Positions 3,599 to 55,813 of a stretch of 64,000 nt of DNA are shown here, piece by piece; within the stretch, counting starts at the first letter, position 1; each line of letters begins with the position of its first letter. The position numbers were made by a program, and so were the translations under genes. Origin of the DNA: Pycnococcus provasolii. Lineage: Eukaryota; Chlorophyta; Pseudoscourfieldiophyceae; Pseudoscourfieldiales; Pycnococcaceae. The stretch is taken from the NCBI GenBank assembly GCA_938743325.2, contig OW568902.1:62001-126000 (forward strand), given 5' to 3'. A model generated the notes under the pieces. That model did not search any database. It was not told the origin of the DNA and saw nothing but the letters and a program-made list of their open reading frames with translations.

Positions 3599-4182
3599 TG
3601 GAAACCCCTAATAACCCGAAATAGAAACATCATAAACCCCGAATACCCATACCACCACCTGAGGAGCCCCCTGGTCATAGTGAATGTGCAACTCTGTCAT
3701 AGTGAAAACAACCTGGGTTTAGGTCCATGCCACAGGTCCACTGGGTTCCATACCACCCACAGGCGCATGCGATTAGGGCGACTAAGGGTCAAGGTCTCAA
3801 GGAACGCCCATAAAGGTTTAGGGCACATCCCGAACGAACGGCCCCCGCCGGCATTCTGCATTCGGATCCCCTCCCCTCCCCGGCTGCCCGGCCTTAATTA
3901 AGGGTGCCCCCCCGGGGCCGGGGGGTGAGACCTTACAAGTGCGAAACACATCAGCACAACACGCCATACCGGCCAGCAGCCATCACACTCGTGCTCGCCT
4001 ATTGTCGTGCTTGCCTGGTGTCGCACGTTAACGTCACACCGGCCGCCATCGCCGCTGTTGCTGCTAATTATAATAATATTAATAAGCACACGCAACACGA
4101 ACTTTCGCCTGAGCTTACTCTTACAGTCTGATTTATTCGCTCGCGAGAGAGACTTTTACTTACTTACTTAAGCATACAGAAC
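3599..4182. other. Spacer upstream of the WD40-TIR-kinase gene
   Basis: No gene seen. It holds C/G-rich runs near 3900-3925 and an AT-rich stretch near 4060-4085. A CTTAAG palindrome at 4167-4172 sits 10 bp before the next start codon, in a short ACTT-rich repeat. Presumed promoter of the downstream gene. Confidence 0.5.
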
Positions 4183-6759
4183 ATGGGATGCGGGGCAAGC
4201 CAAGAGCATGTGCCAGCGCCAGCGCCTGCCATGTATGTGCCAGCACCTGCACCTGCACCTGCACCACCTCTGCGATATGACGATACGCAGCAGTACGTCG
4301 TCACCGCGAGCAAAGACGTGACAGCACGTATCTGGAACGTAACAACAGGTGCGTGCGTGCGTACACTAGAGGGACATAAAAGCGGTGTGATTTCGTGCGC
4401 CTTCTCCCCGGACGGTACGCAGATTGTCACTGGAAGCGAGGACAAGACAGTGAAGGTGTGGGACGCGTCGACGGGCGCGTGCGTGCGTACACTTGACGGA
4501 CACGCATACTATGTGTTTTCGTGCGCCTTCTCTCCAAACGGTACGCAGATTGTCACTGGACACTCCGACTCGACAGCGAATGTGTGGGACGCGTCGACGG
4601 GCGCGTGTGTGCGTACACTAGAGGGACACACAAACTGTGTGGTATCGTGCGCCTTCTCCCCGGACGGTACGCAGATTGTCACTGCAAGCTGGGACAAGAC
4701 AGCGAAGGTGTGGGACGTGTCGACGGGCGTGTGCGTGCGTACACTACAGGGACACACATACTCTGTGTATTCGTGCGCCTTCTCCCCGAACGGTACGCAT
4801 ATTGTCACTGCAAGCGAGGACAACACAGCGAAGGTGTGGGACGCGTCGACGGGCGCGTGCGTGCGTACACTAGAGGGACACACAAGCTATGTGGAATCGT
4901 GCGCCTTCTCCCCGGACGGTACGCAGATTGTCACTGCAAGCTTCGACTATACAGCGAAGGTGTGGGACGCGTCGACGGGCAAGTGCGTGCGTACACTAGA
5001 GGGACACACAAGCGCTGTGAACTCGTGCGCCTTCTCCCCGGACGGTACGCAGGTTGTCACTGCAAGCTTGGACAATACAGCGAAAGTGTGGGACGCGTCG
5101 ACGGGCGCGTGCGTGCGTACACTAGAGGGACACACAGACTCTGTGTGGTCGTGCGCCTTCCGTCCATCGCAAACAAACGCACCATCGCCAATCGTGCACG
5201 CCAAGTCACCATCATCATCAACAACATCACCCACGGCTCAAACACCCGCACCACCGACAACAAATCACACCCCTTCTGCGGCGACTATACCACCACCACC
5301 ACCACCATCAACATTACCAGCAAAAAATCCCGAGCAGTCAACGAAAGAAGCTGCTATCATCAACGCACCAGGTCGATGGGATGTCTTCATCAGCCATACG
5401 CAGAGAAATGCGAATGCGAAGCTGCTTGCGCTCGATCTCTTTGGCAGCCTTAAGGAACGTGGCATCACAGCCTGGCTTGACGTCAAGATGAAGAATCGCG
5501 ATGAGGCAGCCATGAGAGAAGGTGTTCGCAATTCGACCATTTGTGTGGCCATCATCAGCGACGGCGATGGGACAGATGGCACCGCGTACTTCATGCGACC
5601 TTTCTGCTTGAGCGAACTCCGATGGGCAGTCGAAGCAAACGTATTCATCCAGCCTGTCATCGACATCGACGACAAGAAGCGGATTGGAGAATTCATGCAG
5701 CAGGCACCGGAGGATCTCAAGTTCCTTGGAGGCATCAACTTCCTTGAGTTGTACCGCGGTTCGCTCGACTTCTGGGATACGTCCGTCAACGGAGTCGTCG
5801 GTGTGCTGAATGACAAGAAAGTGCCAAACTCGAATCTCATTGAAGAGTACGCGGAAATTATCAACGCCATGCAGTCGTCCAAGGATGTCGTCGCAGAGAA
5901 GAAGGATCGCATGCAAGAGCTAAAAGCACAGCTTGCAAACTTCACCATCTCGCAGGCTGACGTCACGATGGACACGCTCGTGGGTGAGGGTGGCTTTGGG
6001 AACGTGCATCGTGGCGTTCTTCGCAAGGGTGCATCGGTCGCAGTTAAGGTGCTGCACGCGCACAGGTTGAATCGTCCGAGCATCAAAGCAATGCTCCGCG
6101 AGGCGCACATTCTCTCCCAGCTCAAACACCCGAACATCATGGTATTTTTCGGCGCCATCGTCGAGCCGCCCACGTATGGCTACGTGATGCAATATTACCC
6201 GAACGGATGCGTGTCTGATCAGCTCACAGATACGGACATGGACATTTCATGGGAACGTCGCATTCGGTGGGGTGTCGGCCTAGCATCTGGCCTCGACTAC
6301 CTTCACGCGCGCAAACCTTCTCCAATCGTGCACGGCGACGTCAAAGCTGCAAACCTTCTCCTGGATTCCCATGACAATGCCGTTCTGATTGACTTTGGCC
6401 TCGCGACAATCAGGAAGCAGCACGCGTCTTCGACGGCTAACGTGCAAGGCGGATCGACGATTCGATGGGCGGCGCCCGAGTGCAACGAAGGTGAGCGCAA
6501 AACTCCGGCGAGCGATATGTTTTCCTTCGCCATCACGATGTGGGAGATGGCTACGCGGGAACAGCTCCCGATGGCTGATATGCACGATGTTGCGTACATG
6601 CGGTACGTGGCTGATGGCAAGCGTCCACCCCTTCCTGCGGACACGGATGCATGTCCGCGAGATGTTCGCGAACTTGTCGAAGCATGCTGGCAAGCGAAGC
6701 CTGAAAAGCGCGCGACTGCCGAAGATGCGCTTGAGCGCCTTCAGCGCATCTCGTTGTAA
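4183..6759 (+). CDS. WD40-TIR-protein kinase fusion
   Basis: 858 residues. The N-terminus MGCGAS is a textbook N-myristoylation site (Gly2) with a palmitoylatable Cys3, so membrane attachment is likely. Residues about 30-325 carry seven WD40 repeats, enough for one propeller, each 42 residues and nearly identical (AFSPDGTQIVTAS, TAKVWDASTGACVRTLEGH). A Pro/Ser/Thr-rich linker leads to a TIR domain (about 397-527) beginning WDVFISHTQ, with FCLSELRWA holding Glu478 at the position of the NADase glutamate of plant and SARM1 TIRs. A tyrosine-kinase-like kinase domain follows (about 592-856): GEGGFGNV loop, Lys622 in VAVKV, HGDVKAANLL with Asp719, and DFG with Asp737. The key catalytic residues of the kinase are present. 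Function is inferred as ligand sensing coupled to TIR and kinase signalling, analogous to innate-immune receptors. Confidence 0.93.
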   Translation: MGCGASQEHVPAPAPAMYVPAPAPAPAPPLRYDDTQQYVVTASKDVTARIWNVTTGACVRTLEGHKSGVISCAFSPDGTQIVTGSEDKTVKVWDASTGACVRTLDGHAYYVFSCAFSPNGTQIVTGHSDSTANVWDASTGACVRTLEGHTNCVVSCAFSPDGTQIVTASWDKTAKVWDVSTGVCVRTLQGHTYSVYSCAFSPNGTHIVTASEDNTAKVWDASTGACVRTLEGHTSYVESCAFSPDGTQIVTASFDYTAKVWDASTGKCVRTLEGHTSAVNSCAFSPDGTQVVTASLDNTAKVWDASTGACVRTLEGHTDSVWSCAFRPSQTNAPSPIVHAKSPSSSTTSPTAQTPAPPTTNHTPSAATIPPPPPPSTLPAKNPEQSTKEAAIINAPGRWDVFISHTQRNANAKLLALDLFGSLKERGITAWLDVKMKNRDEAAMREGVRNSTICVAIISDGDGTDGTAYFMRPFCLSELRWAVEANVFIQPVIDIDDKKRIGEFMQQAPEDLKFLGGINFLELYRGSLDFWDTSVNGVVGVLNDKKVPNSNLIEEYAEIINAMQSSKDVVAEKKDRMQELKAQLANFTISQADVTMDTLVGEGGFGNVHRGVLRKGASVAVKVLHAHRLNRPSIKAMLREAHILSQLKHPNIMVFFGAIVEPPTYGYVMQYYPNGCVSDQLTDTDMDISWERRIRWGVGLASGLDYLHARKPSPIVHGDVKAANLLLDSHDNAVLIDFGLATIRKQHASSTANVQGGSTIRWAAPECNEGERKTPASDMFSFAITMWEMATREQLPMADMHDVAYMRYVADGKRPPLPADTDACPRDVRELVEACWQAKPEKRATAEDALERLQRISL
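4393..5160 (+). repeat. 126-bp in-frame tandem array coding the WD40 units
   Basis: The landmark TCGTGCGCC recurs at 4393, 4519, 4645, 4771, 4897, 5023 and 5149, exactly 126 bp apart. The units are nearly identical at nucleotide level, including third codon positions. The array is open on both strands, which makes several spurious antisense frames. Confidence 0.95.
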
Positions 6760-7111
6760 AGCAACACGGAAGTGCGATTTGTAAACGTCGGTGGAGAACG
6801 CTGCGGCAATTTCATTATCAAAACAAACGTTACACGAAATATTCGTTGTATTCCTACTCACTTCGTCTTATTAAGGTACGCACGTCGTGTACCCGCGGCT
6901 ACATCAGTGTGCTGGCCATGTTCGTTGGCAGCGAGTTGAGAATGCCGAGTCAGCTCTCATCAGCCCAGTCAGTTGAGTTAAGGGGAGATGAGACCCTAAC
7001 CCTAACCCTAACCCTAACCCTAACCCGACTAACCTTAGTCCAATACCCTTACCGCCACAGACAGGGTCGCCTAACAGCCTTCTTGCCCGTCCCCTCGAAG
7101 ACCTGTTCATC
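6760..7111. other. Spacer with telomere-like array before the TraB gene
   Basis: 352 bp without a gene. Its notable content is the CCCTAA array at 6993-7026. Confidence 0.5.
6993..7026. repeat. Interstitial telomere-like array (CCCTAA)5-6
   Basis: Perfect hexamer repeats, 86-119 bp upstream of the TraB-domain start codon. Together with the 3468-3598 array it brackets the WD40-TIR-kinase gene, both in the same orientation. Confidence 0.95.
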
Positions 7112-8020
7112 ATGGCGTTCCTGCTCATAACAACACATGGGTCGCTCACCACAAGACTCACAAGAACGTCTCTCCTTTCACGCTCTTCATCTTTTACATT
7201 TTATGTCAACGCACATGTGAGAAGAACCTGGTCATCATCCTCTTCACCTTCATCGAATCACAATAATACGTCATTAATACGCCTTCCTCTCTCTCAGACG
7301 GATGTCTTCTTGGTAGGAACCGCGCACATTTCTCAGGAAAGTGCACGGGAAGTTCGACAGCTCATCTCGACGGTTAAGCCTGACGTCGTCGCGATCGAAC
7401 TGTGTCGGGAAAGGGCGCAGCGCTTTCAAAAACAATCCAGTTTCGCCAACCAAAACGAAACGACGCCGGACGAAGTCGTCAAGAAGCTTCTCAAGGCGCT
7501 TGGAGTCACGCAAGACGCTAACGCGCTCGGTCTCGGAGGCGCCGCGCTGAAAGCGGTCGTGTCTCAGATGTACCGCGGTCTGAGAATGAGTGGACTGGAA
7601 CCGGGAAAGGAGTTCCAGGTGGCGATGGAGGAGGCGTCGAACGTCGGTGCGAATCTCGCGCTCATTGACCGCGAGCAAGACGCAACCTTCGCGGAGTTGC
7701 GAAAGGCAATCAAGGTGTCCGACGTCATGCGTTTCATGTTCGGCGGCGCGACGCCGCTCCCTCCCGAGCTCGCTAGCGTGTTCCAGGCGTACGACACGAG
7801 CGGGGAGGGCATGCAGGAGACGGTTGAGCGGCTGAAAAATAGGGCAACCATACGCGCCGCTGTTTCTCACCTGCGCGAGCAGTACCCGCAAATCGTCGAC
7901 GTCATTTTGGACCAACGAGACGAGTTCATGGCGGAGAAATTAAAACGTCTAAGAGGTAGCGTAGTCGCCGTCGTGGGCATGGCGCACATGGACGGCATTG
8001 AGAGAAGGCTAAGACAGTGA
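7112..8020 (+). CDS. TraB/PrgY-domain protein
   Basis: 302 residues. After a Ser/Arg/Thr-rich N-terminus without acidic residues (about 1-55, a likely mitochondrial or plastid presequence), the TraB fold is clear: TDVFLVGTAHISQESAREV, then VVAIELCRERAQRF, and a C-terminal VAVVGMAHMDGIERRL. The GTAH and GMAH histidines and the EL-R motif are the conserved family positions. Related eukaryotic TRABD proteins are associated with mitochondria; related bacterial proteins limit peptide pheromone activity, and the fold is tied to metalloprotease-like activity. The substrate here is unknown. It reads in the same direction as the kinase gene, 352 bp downstream. Confidence 0.87.
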   Translation: MAFLLITTHGSLTTRLTRTSLLSRSSSFTFYVNAHVRRTWSSSSSPSSNHNNTSLIRLPLSQTDVFLVGTAHISQESAREVRQLISTVKPDVVAIELCRERAQRFQKQSSFANQNETTPDEVVKKLLKALGVTQDANALGLGGAALKAVVSQMYRGLRMSGLEPGKEFQVAMEEASNVGANLALIDREQDATFAELRKAIKVSDVMRFMFGGATPLPPELASVFQAYDTSGEGMQETVERLKNRATIRAAVSHLREQYPQIVDVILDQRDEFMAEKLKRLRGSVVAVVGMAHMDGIERRLRQ

Positions 8021-9251: not shown

Positions 9252-11555
9252 TTAACTGCCATTCTGGTGCTCGCGCCAAGCCTTCGCACGAGCATCAGCC
9301 TCCTGCTTACGCCTCATTGCAATCTCCTCACGCGCCCTTGCATTCTCAGCCGCTCGAGCCATCGCCTCAGCTTCCTGCGTCGATGTTGGCTTCCGAGGAG
9401 CTGCTGGTGCGGGTGCGCCGCGCGCAGGGGGAGGTGCCAAGGGAGTGCGCAGGTCCGCGCCAGATGCCGCCAAACCTGCAACGCCTCCCGTCCCAGCGCT
9501 GTGAGGCACCACGTCGCCGACGCGCTGGTTCTCACCATCCTCCCACTCAAACGTGCCGTCGCCGTGCCGCATCAGAACCTTGAACTCGCAAGTGCTCACG
9601 TCGCCGTCCCACATCGCCACCTCCGCGGACCAAACGTCGCCGTCCGCGCGCGTCAACGCGAGCGCATTCTCAGGCTTCCACGCGCCGAGCTGACCTGGAG
9701 TGCCGCACACGAGCATGCTGTTCTCCTCAGGACAAGGCGAGTGCACGCGGAAGCGCACCCACTTCGCGTTCGCGACGCACGCGGAGTGGAAGTCGCCCTC
9801 CTCGCGGCTGATGCTTACGTTGTCGCCGTCGTCCCACTGCACCGAGCCGTCCGCGTACTTCACGAGCACCTTGAACTCACACGCGTCGACGTCCGCGTCG
9901 TTCATCGCGATCTGCGCGGACCACACGTCGTCGTCGGAGCCTGTGAGGATGTACGCCAAATCAGCGTCCCAGTTGCCGAGCAAGTCGGTGTTTCCGCACA
10001 CCGCGACGTTGTCTCCGTACGCGAGCGGGCGGTGGACGCGCAAGCGCACGACACGCGCGTCCGTCTGCGAAGCGCACTGATGTGCCTGCCCTGCCGGAGC
10101 TGGTGGCTGCGACATCTGCTGTGCCGTAGGTTCCGGCGGCGCGGTGGGCGCGAGTCCCTTCGCCTCCGCGAACGCCTTGGCGCGCTGTTCCTCCTCCATC
10201 TGACGTGCTGTCTTCTGCGGTGGCATCGCCTGCTGCGCCGGCGGTGCGGGCATCGGCGGCACTGCACCTGCAGGAACTCCACGAGCGGCGGCGAATGCCT
10301 GAGCACGCGCGGCAGCCTCCTGCTGACGCCTCGTTTGGATCTGAGCGCGAGCGGCGGCAGCCTCCGCAGCCCGAGCCATCGCCTCCGCCTCCTTGGCGGA
10401 CTTGGGTGCGCCGTACGCAGGCCGAGTGGAAGGCGGGGGTGGTGCAGCCGGAGTGCGCAGCGACCCGTTTCTTGCCATGTCACGTGCTCCCAGTGCCCCA
10501 CCTGCGGACGATTCAAACTCCATCTGGCGGATCGCCTCAAGCGCCTGATTCGCGGCTGCACTTGCCAGCATCTTCGTGTCCGCCTGCCTGAACGTGTGAG
10601 GCACCACGTCGCCGACACGCTGGTTCTCACCATCCTCCCACTCAAACGTGCCGTCGCCGTGCCGCATCAGAACCTTGAACTCGCAAGTGCTCACGTCGCC
10701 GTCCCACATCGCCACCTCCGCGGACCAAACGTCGCCGTCTGTGCGCGTCAGCGCGAGCGCATTCTCAGGCTTCCACGCGCCGAGCTGACCCGGCGTGCCG
10801 CACACGAGCATGCTGTTCTCCTCAGGACAAGGCGAGTGCACGCGGAAGCGCACCCACTTCGCGTTCGCGACGCACGCGGAGTGGAAGTCGCCCTCCTCGC
10901 GGCTGATGCTTAAGTTGTCGCCGTCGTCCCACTGCACCGAGCCGTCCGCGTACTTCACGAGCACCTTGAACTCGCACGCGTTGACGTCCGCGTCGTTCAT
11001 CGCGATCTGAGCGGACCACACGTCGTCGTCGGAGCCTGTGAGGATGTACGCCAAATCGGCGTCCCAGTTGCCGAGCAAGTCGGTGTTCCCGCACACCGCG
11101 ACGTTGTCTCCGTACGCGAGAGGGCGGTGCACGCGGAAGCGCACGACGCGCGCGTCCGTCTGCGAAGCGCACGAATCGTGCTGCTGCTGCTGCTGCTGCC
11201 CGTTCTGTGGCTGGTGCTGTGCCGTAGGTTCGGGCGGCGCGGTGGGCGCGTGTCCCTTCGCCTCCGCGAACGCCTTGGCGCGTGCCTCCGCCTCCTTTTG
11301 GCGTGCACGCGAGAGCTCTTCCCGCGCTCTTGCGTTTTCGAGAGCACGCTGCGTGCGTTCTCGCGCCGCAATGCCGTTGCTGTTCGCACCGCCGGTTGGT
11401 GCGTACGAGCCGTTCATCCCCATGTGCGACGCCGCGGACGACGACGACGCAGGGAACACCGCGTGCAGGCTAACACGACGAGACTGTCGAATACGAGGAG
11501 GTATTCTCCCTCTCTGGTTTCGATTGTTGTTATAAGACACACGGCTCATCATCAT
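9252..11555 (-). CDS. Four-CBM20 starch-binding repeat protein, likely plastid
   Basis: 767 residues. The N-terminus (Arg/Ser/Asn-rich to VSLHAVFPASSSSAASH) looks like a plastid transit peptide. Four CBM20 domains occur in two pairs at about 132-230, 233-330, 497-595 and 598-690. Each shows the CBM20 pattern: VAVCGNTDLLGNWD, then W before an acidic turn, EFKVLV-YADG and QWDDGDN, with the starch-contacting Trp residues present. Between and around the pairs lie helical segments of the type ARAREELSRARQKEAEARAK...AFAEAKG, also found in the next two genes. No catalytic domain is visible, so the protein probably binds and organises starch rather than degrading it. It ends AKAWREHQNGS. Placement at the plastid starch granule or pyrenoid sheath is inferred. 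Confidence 0.88.
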   Translation of the reverse strand: MMMSRVSYNNNRNQRGRIPPRIRQSRRVSLHAVFPASSSSAASHMGMNGSYAPTGGANSNGIAARERTQRALENARAREELSRARQKEAEARAKAFAEAKGHAPTAPPEPTAQHQPQNGQQQQQQHDSCASQTDARVVRFRVHRPLAYGDNVAVCGNTDLLGNWDADLAYILTGSDDDVWSAQIAMNDADVNACEFKVLVKYADGSVQWDDGDNLSISREEGDFHSACVANAKWVRFRVHSPCPEENSMLVCGTPGQLGAWKPENALALTRTDGDVWSAEVAMWDGDVSTCEFKVLMRHGDGTFEWEDGENQRVGDVVPHTFRQADTKMLASAAANQALEAIRQMEFESSAGGALGARDMARNGSLRTPAAPPPPSTRPAYGAPKSAKEAEAMARAAEAAAARAQIQTRRQQEAAARAQAFAAARGVPAGAVPPMPAPPAQQAMPPQKTARQMEEEQRAKAFAEAKGLAPTAPPEPTAQQMSQPPAPAGQAHQCASQTDARVVRLRVHRPLAYGDNVAVCGNTDLLGNWDADLAYILTGSDDDVWSAQIAMNDADVDACEFKVLVKYADGSVQWDDGDNVSISREEGDFHSACVANAKWVRFRVHSPCPEENSMLVCGTPGQLGAWKPENALALTRADGDVWSAEVAMWDGDVSTCEFKVLMRHGDGTFEWEDGENQRVGDVVPHSAGTGGVAGLAASGADLRTPLAPPPARGAPAPAAPRKPTSTQEAEAMARAAENARAREEIAMRRKQEADARAKAWREHQNGS
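9501..11290 (-). repeat. Internal duplication of the CBM20 pair (about 1.1 kb offset)
   Basis: The segment from 9501 to about 10190 recurs at 10596 to about 11290, offset 1095-1098 bp (in frame), with very few differences including silent ones. It carries two CBM20 domains plus part of a helical segment. This is a recent intragenic duplication. Confidence 0.9.
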
Positions 11556-12942: not shown

Positions 12943-14373
12943 TCAAAAACCACGCGCAGCCTGATACGCCTTCGCCCTCGCCTCGGCTTCAGCCGCCCTC
13001 TTCGCCGCAATCGCCGCACGTGCACTCTCCGCATCGCCGTTGTTGGTGGTTTGCTGACGAGGCTGCTGATGCGCAACGGCGGGAGGAGCAGGAGCAGCAG
13101 CCACAACACCACGCGCCTCCTGATACGCCCTCATGCGAGCTTCCGCATCCTTCTGGCGAATGGTCTTGATCTCCGCGCGAGCGTGCTCGTAAGCCATGCC
13201 ATCCGCCCTTGCTTTCGCCTCTCCCGCGGCAGCAAATGCCCTCGGCTTCGCCTCCTCCCTTCGCATCGACTGGATCGCATCGCGCACCTGCGAGTATCCC
13301 TGCACATCCTGCTGCAGGTGCGCCTCCTCCGCAGCCTTGTAGACCATTCCCCTTGCGGCGGCGTACGCCTGGCGGCGTGCCTCAGCCTCAGCCGCCTTCT
13401 TCGCCGCAATACCCGCGCGCTCCTGCGCGTACGCGCCTTGAGGAGCGGCGGGCGCCGGAGCGTTGAAGTCTGGGATGTGTCGTGCCGACGACGCGTTGTT
13501 GAATGACGCGGCGGCGGCGGCAGGCTGCACGGGTGCGGGTGCGTATCCTGCAGACTCGGGATTTTGGGCGAACGCCTCCTTGGCAGCCGCGAATGCTTGC
13601 GCACGCTGCTCCGCCTCCCTTCGTCGGCTCACCTGCTGTTCGGCGCGATGCCTCGCGTTTGCAACCGCCGCAGCTGCGGCATCTTCCTGCGCCATGGACT
13701 TCTGGAATGCGGGCGTCTCCTTGTTGGCGAACGAGTGCTGTGTCTGTCGCGTGGCGATGCTCTCGTTCTCCCCATCCGCCCACTCGACTCTCCCGTCTGC
13801 GTATTTTCGGACCACCTTAAGTTCCGCGCGTTCAATCTCCTCCGGGCTCATGGACGTGTTTGCGGTCCACACGTCACCTTCGGACCACTCGAGCCTGAGT
13901 GCGTGGTCTGTGTTCCAGTTCCCGAGTTGGTCCGTGGAGCCGCAGACGAGCACGCCATCTCCAAACTCGCACTCCATGTGTACGCGAAAGTCGACGGACT
14001 TTCCGTTGTCTGTGACGGCGGCGGTAGCGTTTTCGTCGAATTCCACCCCTGACGCGGATGCGTGTCGTCTCGGGTTCGGGTCCGTTCCAGACTTCGCCTC
14101 CTCGAACGCTCGTGCGCGTGCGTCAGCAACTTTTTGTCTGATGACTGCAAGTTGCGCTTTCGCCTTAGCATCCGCCGCCGCTTTCAGCTCCGCATCGGTT
14201 TGCATCGTCAACGTCGTCGAAGCCATGGATGCGACGAGGAGTCGCCTAAAAGGGACAGGGACGAGTCGCCTATTACGACGAGTAGGAGCATGAGGGAGAG
14301 ACCGAGGAGCACGGCTACCAGAAGTAGCACGTGCATGGGGATTCATCGACGTGGACGTTGACGGCGCCATCAT
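12943..14373 (-). CDS. One-CBM20 helical-repeat protein, likely plastid
   Basis: 476 residues from the ATG pair at 14373/14370; the frame extends further only through a TTG. A basic, Ser/Thr/Pro-rich N-terminus looks like a transit peptide. One CBM20 domain (about 126-225) shows DGVLVCGSTDQLGNWNTDHA, DVWTAN and RVEWADGEN. Around it are six copies of a helical repeat with consensus xYAxARAxIxxxRxxEAxAR followed by AxAxxAARG. The C-terminus is AKAYQAARGF, and its AARGF end is shared with the next protein. A block beginning with MRREEAKPRAF is colinear with the 248-residue neighbour. The three genes are clearly paralogous and point the same way. Confidence 0.85.
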   Translation of the reverse strand: MMAPSTSTSMNPHARATSGSRAPRSLPHAPTRRNRRLVPVPFRRLLVASMASTTLTMQTDAELKAAADAKAKAQLAVIRQKVADARARAFEEAKSGTDPNPRRHASASGVEFDENATAAVTDNGKSVDFRVHMECEFGDGVLVCGSTDQLGNWNTDHALRLEWSEGDVWTANTSMSPEEIERAELKVVRKYADGRVEWADGENESIATRQTQHSFANKETPAFQKSMAQEDAAAAAVANARHRAEQQVSRRREAEQRAQAFAAAKEAFAQNPESAGYAPAPVQPAAAAASFNNASSARHIPDFNAPAPAAPQGAYAQERAGIAAKKAAEAEARRQAYAAARGMVYKAAEEAHLQQDVQGYSQVRDAIQSMRREEAKPRAFAAAGEAKARADGMAYEHARAEIKTIRQKDAEARMRAYQEARGVVAAAPAPPAVAHQQPRQQTTNNGDAESARAAIAAKRAAEAEARAKAYQAARGF

Positions 14374-15186
14374 CAGAGGTTTCAAAGTAGTTCGCCACGG
14401 GTGTTGTTAGGCCTAGTGAGGTCGTACAGTAGGAGTGGGTTAAAAGGTGCCCCAGACCAGAGCAAGATACCCTAACCCGAAAACGTCTTTCCAGCTTGGA
14501 TCCCCCCCCCCCCCCCCCTATCCCCTCCCCCTCAGGGATGGATTTCCCCCCCCAAGAGGAAGATACGATTCGTGGGGCTCAGAATTCGTACCCTCGAAAC
14601 CTGGTCGGGCTTAGCGGTTAGGTCGTGCAAGGGTGGATCCCCCGATTCCGATTTAGTATTATTCCGCTTTGATTTCATGATTTTCATCCGCGGGGGGTCC
14701 CTTCTTGCACCACCTTGGGGGGAGCTATAACATACATGTGATCTCCCCTTGGCCCTTGCTTGCATGCACTCCCTGGCTCCTAACCCTAGACCTAACCCTA
14801 GACCTAATCCTAACCCTAACCCTAACCTCCTCGCCTATCGTAGCTAGGTGTTTGTGCAAACATGTGCAAATGTGCAATTAAAGTACTTATATATATGTAA
14901 TAAAAGCTTGCACACGATTATTATTCATACAACGTCGTTAAGGGACGTTTGTTTGTTTTGTTTTGTTTGTAGACCAAGTACTTATTATTCATATGATGAA
15001 TAAGTAGTAGTTAGAAACAACATTTGCTGAATGAAATATGTATTCACCATAGAACGAAAACATGTATGTGAATAAAAATTATAATTGGGAAAAACAAGTA
15101 CTCAATTAGAAGACTGCCCTCCAAAAGTGTGACCAGTGTTGATGCCCAGTCATGAAGTGCTTGAATAGCCGCGCAATCTCGTGAAC
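14374..15186. other. Spacer with poly-C tract and telomere-like array
   Basis: No gene. It contains two GGATCCCC motifs, a C17 tract near 14502-14519, the telomere-like array at 14780-14828, and an AT-rich 14870-15100 stretch that is probably the 3' region of the next gene. Confidence 0.5.
14780..14828. repeat. Interstitial telomere-like array (CCCTAA/CCCTAGA)
   Basis: About eight units, alternating perfect CCCTAA with CCCTAGA and CCTAATC variants, some 400-455 bp upstream of the one-CBM20 gene start. Confidence 0.9.
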
Positions 15187-55744: not shown

Positions 55745-55813
55745 GTTAGGGTTAGGGTTAGGGTTACGTTAGGGTTACGTTAGGGTTTAAGGGCTCGCGT
55801 TAGGGTTTAAGGG
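55745..55813. repeat. Telomere-like array (TTAGGG, TTACG variants)
   Basis: GGTTAGGGTTAGGG followed by GTTACGTTAGGG and TTAGGGTTTAAGGG units, 90-158 bp upstream of the amidase ATG, in opposite orientation to the other arrays. Confidence 0.9.

Follow-up and report, generated by a model that had tools for sequence, protein, structure and literature searches.

In a 64,000-nucleotide stretch of the Pycnococcus provasolii genome (the window; positions 62001-126000 of contig C42 in the 32.33-Mb, 46-contig assembly that we searched) we identified a gene whose predicted protein joins a seven-bladed WD40 propeller, a TIR domain, and a protein kinase in one chain behind an acylation-type N-terminus. 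The WD40 repeats are near-identical copies, and the loop positions at which they vary are the ones that vary in fungal recognition proteins. We give even weight for and against the gene encoding a single-chain receptor for immunity or self/non-self recognition that has no NOD and would combine an acyl anchor, a variable propeller, an NADase TIR, and a kinase. A previous examination of the DNA alone (here, the sequence-only reading) had proposed the fused chain and a self-contained receptor, and had not seen the hypervariable loop positions; the anatomy agrees with that proposal and these positions strengthen it, and the functional steps are predicted from the sequence.

The frame that holds the gene is open over 875 codons, while the longest in 300 first-order Markov shuffles of positions 3601-7200 reached 356. 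This frame translates, stop included, into the single 858-residue protein expected from the sequence-only reading. The ATG at 4183 is the earliest Met codon downstream of the preceding stop, and the later in-frame Mets are residues 17 and 436. Because no ATG lies between these two, a separate TIR-kinase gene would need a 5' exon elsewhere, and the two-gene arrangement that was named beforehand as fatal to the fusion appears unlikely from the frame; in its favor is the predicted start, just before the TIR, of a metagenome protein, P0002. The linker differs in codon usage from the rest of the gene (GC content at third codon positions, 0.32). It may thus contain an in-frame intron, and the fusion would stay intact even so.

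WD40 was matched in seven stretches of the protein (Pfam), and the predicted structure has 28 strands, with pLDDT >90 across nearly the whole propeller. The ring is closed by residues 38-63 (three strands) together with strand 321-326, so the seven blades proposed earlier are borne out. Six complete repeats were compared codon by codon, numbering the 42 codons of each from its GH and excluding from the counts a chance GH inside repeat 2. Mean pairwise identity is 0.875 for DNA (0.817-0.921) and 0.78 for protein (0.69-0.857), and the best three repeats reach 0.833. Twenty-one codons are invariant, 5 have silent differences only, and 16 change the residue. The six most variable are codons 3, 4, 5, 7, 23, and 25.

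These codons correspond to the sites that diversify in the HNWD family of Podospora anserina. The accessible parts of two reports on that family place high dN/dS at repeat positions 10, 11, 12, 14, 30, 32, and 39 (PMC12222747) and, in another numbering, at 7, 9, 25, and 27, beside conserved 8 and 26 (PMC1805685). Aligned on the conserved V6 and D24, the codons of the algal gene map to these positions with offsets of 7 and 2, the former deduced from spacing. All seven codons at the published positions are among the 16 that change the residue, and all of the top six lie inside the published set. None of 200,000 random seven-codon sets was as high in entropy as the HNWD set. In the six loop codons the proportion of nonsynonymous differences (pN) is 0.54 and that of synonymous differences (pS) 0.27 (pN/pS 2.0); pS is 0.09 across all repeat codons, and outside the six pS is 0.07 and pN/pS 0.89. 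With strands taken from the predicted structure, the variable codons occupy or adjoin the d-a and b-c loops, which we take, from WD40 nomenclature, to lie on the same face of the ring.

The same genome provides both relatives and controls for this pattern. We compared five related WD40 genes (L002-L006) and six ordinary ones with at least three matched repeats (L020, L038-L042); L017, with two, was excluded. The related genes have 9-13 matched repeats each, with protein identity of 0.80-0.85. Codons 4, 5, 7, 23, and 25 are in every one of the five top-six lists, where the sixth codon is 27 or 38 and not 3. Entropies as high as those of the five genes turned up in 8, 31, 1, 10, and 18 random sets out of 200,000. 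Variability at loop positions exceeds that at other positions by a factor of about 8 for the window gene and of 7 to 10 across L002-L006, against 1.4 to 2.3 for the ordinary six, whose repeats have protein identities of 0.36-0.63. Repeat DNA identity in L002-L006 is as high between genes (0.86-0.88) as inside a single gene (0.86-0.89), which is what repeat exchange among loci would produce. The window array is set apart, with 0.88 identity within and 0.59-0.60 to the arrays of L002-L006.

The N-terminal part of L005 (L053, G000:C6:998300-1000700) starts MGCASS and has a TIR-like FISHAW...WCLYE stretch, recognized by eye, with no TIR family among those listed. It also has a P-loop/NACHT region (NPHP3_N 1.3e-14, over its cut-off; NACHT 24.7 bits, under the cut-off of 26.7). 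Eleven open reading frames of 1431-1593 aa listed for the genome have similar WD40 matches, and five of them were examined in more detail. Possibly the MGCASS-TIR-like-NACHT-WD40 genes form an algal repertoire of NOD-like receptors (NLRs) under concerted evolution.

The 25 Pfam families listed for the protein, out of 51, did not include the TIR domain. It was identified by PF13676 in the genome at this locus (32.3 bits, cut-off 28), by searching the PDB with a profile built from 11 own-genome TIRs, and by its predicted flavodoxin-like fold. The TIR was modelled alone, because the 50 Foldseek rows listed for the full-length model were propellers. The first 23 rows of the resulting fold comparison are SARM1, TIR-1, and SPARTA, which are NADases. 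The Glu proposed earlier as catalytic, E478, is that of a CLSEL motif; it lies in helix C, aligns with the SARM1 Glu, and is invariant in all 11 own-genome TIRs, as a likely NADase would require. SARM1/TIR-1, the closest solved fold, with Glu in the same place, are NAD hydrolases of ARM-SAM-TIR architecture regulated by ARM-SAM, and to our knowledge have neither WD40 nor kinase.

The kinase domain retains K622, E640, D719, N724, D737, and E766, presumably the catalytic Lys, the Glu, the HxD Asp, the Asn, the DFG Asp, and the APE Glu, so that the residues described earlier as intact are all in place for a tyrosine-kinase-like (TKL) or receptor-like kinase. The best solved match is an EGFR construct in which the kinase is present twice (2.6e-46 overall; 79.6 bits for each copy), followed by plant CTR1 (3.9e-39), and true tyrosine kinases occupy much of the list. 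The earlier label "tyrosine-kinase-like" is apt for the TKL group. Given the catalytic loop HGDVKAAN and the CTR1 match, Ser/Thr specificity is predicted to be likelier than tyrosine specificity.

The start, MGCGASQ, fits what we take to be the N-myristoylation rule (MGxxxS/T), as anticipated from the DNA, and Cys3 is presumably a possible palmitoylation site. By eye, 4 of 11 related-TIR genes have MGxxxS at the first Met (the window gene, L030, L032, and L036) and L035 has it at a later Met; the remaining 6 lack such a start.

Table 1. Features of the WD40-TIR-kinase gene (positions in the window)
Feature	Residues	Position	Strand	Basis
Whole open reading frame, stop included	858 aa	4183..6759	+	translation
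N-terminus: MGCGASQ, then Ala-Pro-rich spacer	1-35	4183..4287	+	N-myristoylation motif (G2, S6), palmitoylatable C3
Seven-bladed WD40 propeller	36-327	4288..5163	+	Pfam and predicted structure
Six complete 126-bp repeats	GH starts at 64, 106, 148, 190, 232, 274	4372..5127	+	sequence
Pro/Ser/Thr-rich linker	328-390	5164..5352	+	predicted model, pLDDT mostly <50
TIR domain; E478 in helix 473-484 at NADase Glu position	about 391-545	5353..5817	+	PF13676, PDB profile search, predicted fold
Helical linker	about 546-590	5818..5952	+	predicted helices 550-565, 567-587
TKL-type protein kinase domain	595-852	5965..6738	+	PF07714 4.5e-54

How might such a protein work? The anatomy and the variation are observed, and each functional step is drawn from the families named above. 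The acylated N-terminus would hold the protein at the membrane, and the variable face of the propeller may bind a varying protein ligand, such as that of a virus, parasite, bacterium, or mating/self partner, as the variation pattern suggests. Ligand binding would cluster the protein. Clustered TIRs could then assemble and cleave NAD+ via Glu478, as fold and residue suggest, and the helical linker would bring the kinases together so that they phosphorylate one another as well as substrates. New specificities may arise through repeat exchange and duplication with selection at the loop codons, a process to which the observed pattern points.

Known proteins share parts of this architecture. HNWD/NWD proteins (het-d, het-e, het-r), as far as the available text of the reports goes, share near-identical WD40 repeats varying at the same loop positions and combine them with a TIR-related effector domain on one polypeptide (PMC12222747, PMC1805685). 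In the same partial sources their order is HET-NACHT-WD40, and activity requires at least about 10 repeats. The algal protein, by contrast, has no NOD, places the propeller first as one 7-blade ring, and has a TIR proper, an added kinase, and a probable acyl anchor. Neither NACHT nor NB-ARC, as expected of an NLR or STAND protein, is among the 25 of 51 families listed, and the linkers, only ~60 (propeller-TIR, disordered) and ~50 residues (TIR-kinase), are too short for either. Choanoflagellate Kinase TIRs, which lack a transmembrane domain, likewise combine TIR and protein kinase in one chain, but belong to another lineage, and the portion of that report at hand mentions no WD40 propeller or acyl start (PMC6040629). 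Plant group 16 TIRs have been suggested, in an excerpt of the source, to be parts of protein kinases (PMC7075850). TIR-NBARC-WD40 of the red alga Chondrus crispus joins TIR and WD40 in one algal chain, but in reverse order and with NB-ARC; the passages available mention no kinase (PMC9806590, PMC7145615). Finally, a protein of Tetraselmis virus 1, a giant virus of a green alga, bears the BFVD name "TIR/WD40 domain-containing protein", without a kinase in the name; it ranks 44 among full-model matches, at 16% identity.

The sequence-only reading was thus right that TIR plus kinase and WD40 plus TIR occur separately elsewhere, and the full order that it found unfamiliar had no earlier description in the literature searched, which covered few subscription papers. 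Nor did that literature describe a green-algal receptor that is hypervariable and lacks a NOD. TIR with kinase, TIR with NB-ARC and WD40, and fungal hypervariable propellers are known; the order WD40-TIR-kinase and the green-algal, NOD-less form of a hypervariable receptor appear to be new.

We searched proteins of 472-1500 aa for relatives, scoring the 7991 best candidates, and found no further full-length WD40-TIR-kinase protein among the best 120 of 487 listed. Of 13 proteins found through the TIR, none has a WD40 family in the precomputed list (0/7 when seven were rescanned), and three combine TIR and kinase (P0002, P0243, P0009). P0002 is 97% identical in its TIR-kinase part and of the same gene lineage, but is predicted at 472 aa without a propeller. 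P0243 and P0009, also from metagenomes, have TIRs 52-53% identical; unlike the window protein, they and the own-genome gene L023 place the kinase before the TIR and have no WD40 family listed. P0061 has kinase and WD40, with no TIR among the families listed, and a related kinase from Pseudoscourfieldia marina is named among the matches listed. A WD40 search (5548 matches, best 120 listed) returned generic propellers and was uninformative on architecture.

In the genome itself PF13676 matches 18 places, 16 over cut-off. Partners in the genes read include ankyrin, armadillo, kinase, GTPase, and WD40; no second WD40-TIR-kinase was seen among these genes, some read only in part. L023 (G000:C5:204109-207393), L024, and L025 are ankyrin-kinase-TIR genes, a second TIR-kinase order in this genome (L023 kinase and TIR by Pfam, its ankyrin-like part and all of L024 and L025 by eye). 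About 79 kb from the window gene, L017 (G000:C42:144266-147475; 1239 aa frame, first 774 aa read) encodes TIR-transmembrane-WD40, the membrane segment being assigned by eye. L007 and L008 are receptor-like kinases with thrombospondin-like repeats and a probable transmembrane segment (domains by eye), and their kinase is 51% identical to that of the window protein.

The window TIR is most similar to that of P0002 (99%), then P0242 from Cymbomonas (62%), then own-genome paralogs (58% at most). We claim no TIR origin from the tree, because few deep forks are resolved and the long-branched P0250, which joins the window TIR and P0002, is of unsure placement. Scans with short exact patterns, which are weak, confirmed no relative in viral contigs (37 pattern matches with the TIR alignment, 1 with P0002), so that a viral origin was set aside, and a prokaryotic origin of the TIR was likewise set aside after 18 pattern matches in genome contigs, none confirmed, in an equally weak scan.

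Three other explanations have to be weighed. The protein could be a scaffold-type kinase, its propeller an ordinary interaction platform and its TIR merely oligomerising without NADase activity, so that the kinase is the sole output, as in Kinase TIRs or Toll-IRAK signalling. We find this doubtful: E478 is kept in all 11 own-genome TIRs compared, the leading fold matches are NADases, and loop codons changing far above silent sites are unexplained by an ordinary scaffold. Alternatively, the array may be young and without a recognition role, its repeats alike from recent duplication and its loops varying as structurally free parts. The few silent differences outside the loop codons are as expected of young copies, and loop positions are more variable than the rest in all six ordinary WD40 genes too. 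However, a pN of 0.54 is unexpected for neutral copies with so low a pS over all codons, and the loop contrast in the window gene and its five relatives is far greater than in the ordinary six; we judge this account improbable.

The junction itself could reflect a recent or accidental fusion, perhaps strain-specific, in which a WD40 gene became joined to a TIR-kinase gene, leaving a chimaera that may be silent or whose halves are made apart. In favor of this, the P0002 start MKEAAIIN aligns with STKEAAIIN of the window protein, TIR paralogs L029, L031, and L033 begin directly at the TIR, and in L038 an MGCC-WD40 protein with a similar first blade stands by itself. The deviant linker codon usage and the lack of another full-length relative among the best 120 listed or the 13 TIR-found proteins point the same way. 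Yet the frame is open and intact throughout, without an internal ATG where a second gene would need one, and both halves keep their key residues. The missing propeller of P0002, known here as a predicted protein, may be a gene-calling artefact. Overall, we think an accidental fusion highly unlikely.

Several observations weigh against the receptor interpretation. The weightiest evidence against a settled fusion comes from P0002, which is predicted to lack the propeller and to begin immediately ahead of the TIR. The six loop codons are also richer in silent differences, and the variation comes from six repeats of one allele. Repeat protein identity, even for the best pair and the best three, falls under the 85% over 100 residues that, in the accessible part of the source, defines high internal conservation in fungi (PMC4986451). 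Codon 3 is outside the top six in all five related genes. Loop positions are among the variable ones in ordinary WD40 genes too, for example L042 (3, 4, 5, 10, 23, 25), so structural freedom accounts for some of the pattern; the location of variation is partly general, but the contrast is not. The relative orientation of domains in the predicted model is unsure (pTM 0.46), and the expression, activity, and ligand of the protein are all predictions.

Interstitial telomere-like CCCTAA repeats occur at 6994-7023 (+), about 235 bases after the gene, and at 55746-55763 (-), with none expected by chance in 100 shuffles. Nearby open reading frames at 9252-11555 (-), with four matched stretches, and 12943-14385 (-) match the starch-binding family CBM20.

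According to the portions available of a published survey, highly conserved arrays of this type are overrepresented among fungal NLRs, in Viridiplantae they are rare, at 0.4% of repeats, and fungal NLR presence has been linked to multicellularity (PMC4986451). Tentatively, and with less than even confidence, we propose that P. provasolii diversifies its intracellular recognition proteins as HNWD proteins are diversified, by repeat exchange plus selection on propeller loops. This would apply to a TIR-like/NACHT/WD40 family as well as to a new NOD-less receptor whose single propeller would directly control an NADase TIR and a kinase at the membrane; the NOD would then be dispensable, with ligand-driven clustering as the switch for TIR and kinase. 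If so, this would be a small, testable receptor with sensing, NAD cleavage, and phosphorylation in one chain. An HNWD-like codon pattern in genes of a unicellular alga, some with a NOD and some lacking one, would suggest that multicellularity is not required for recognizing non-self rapidly.
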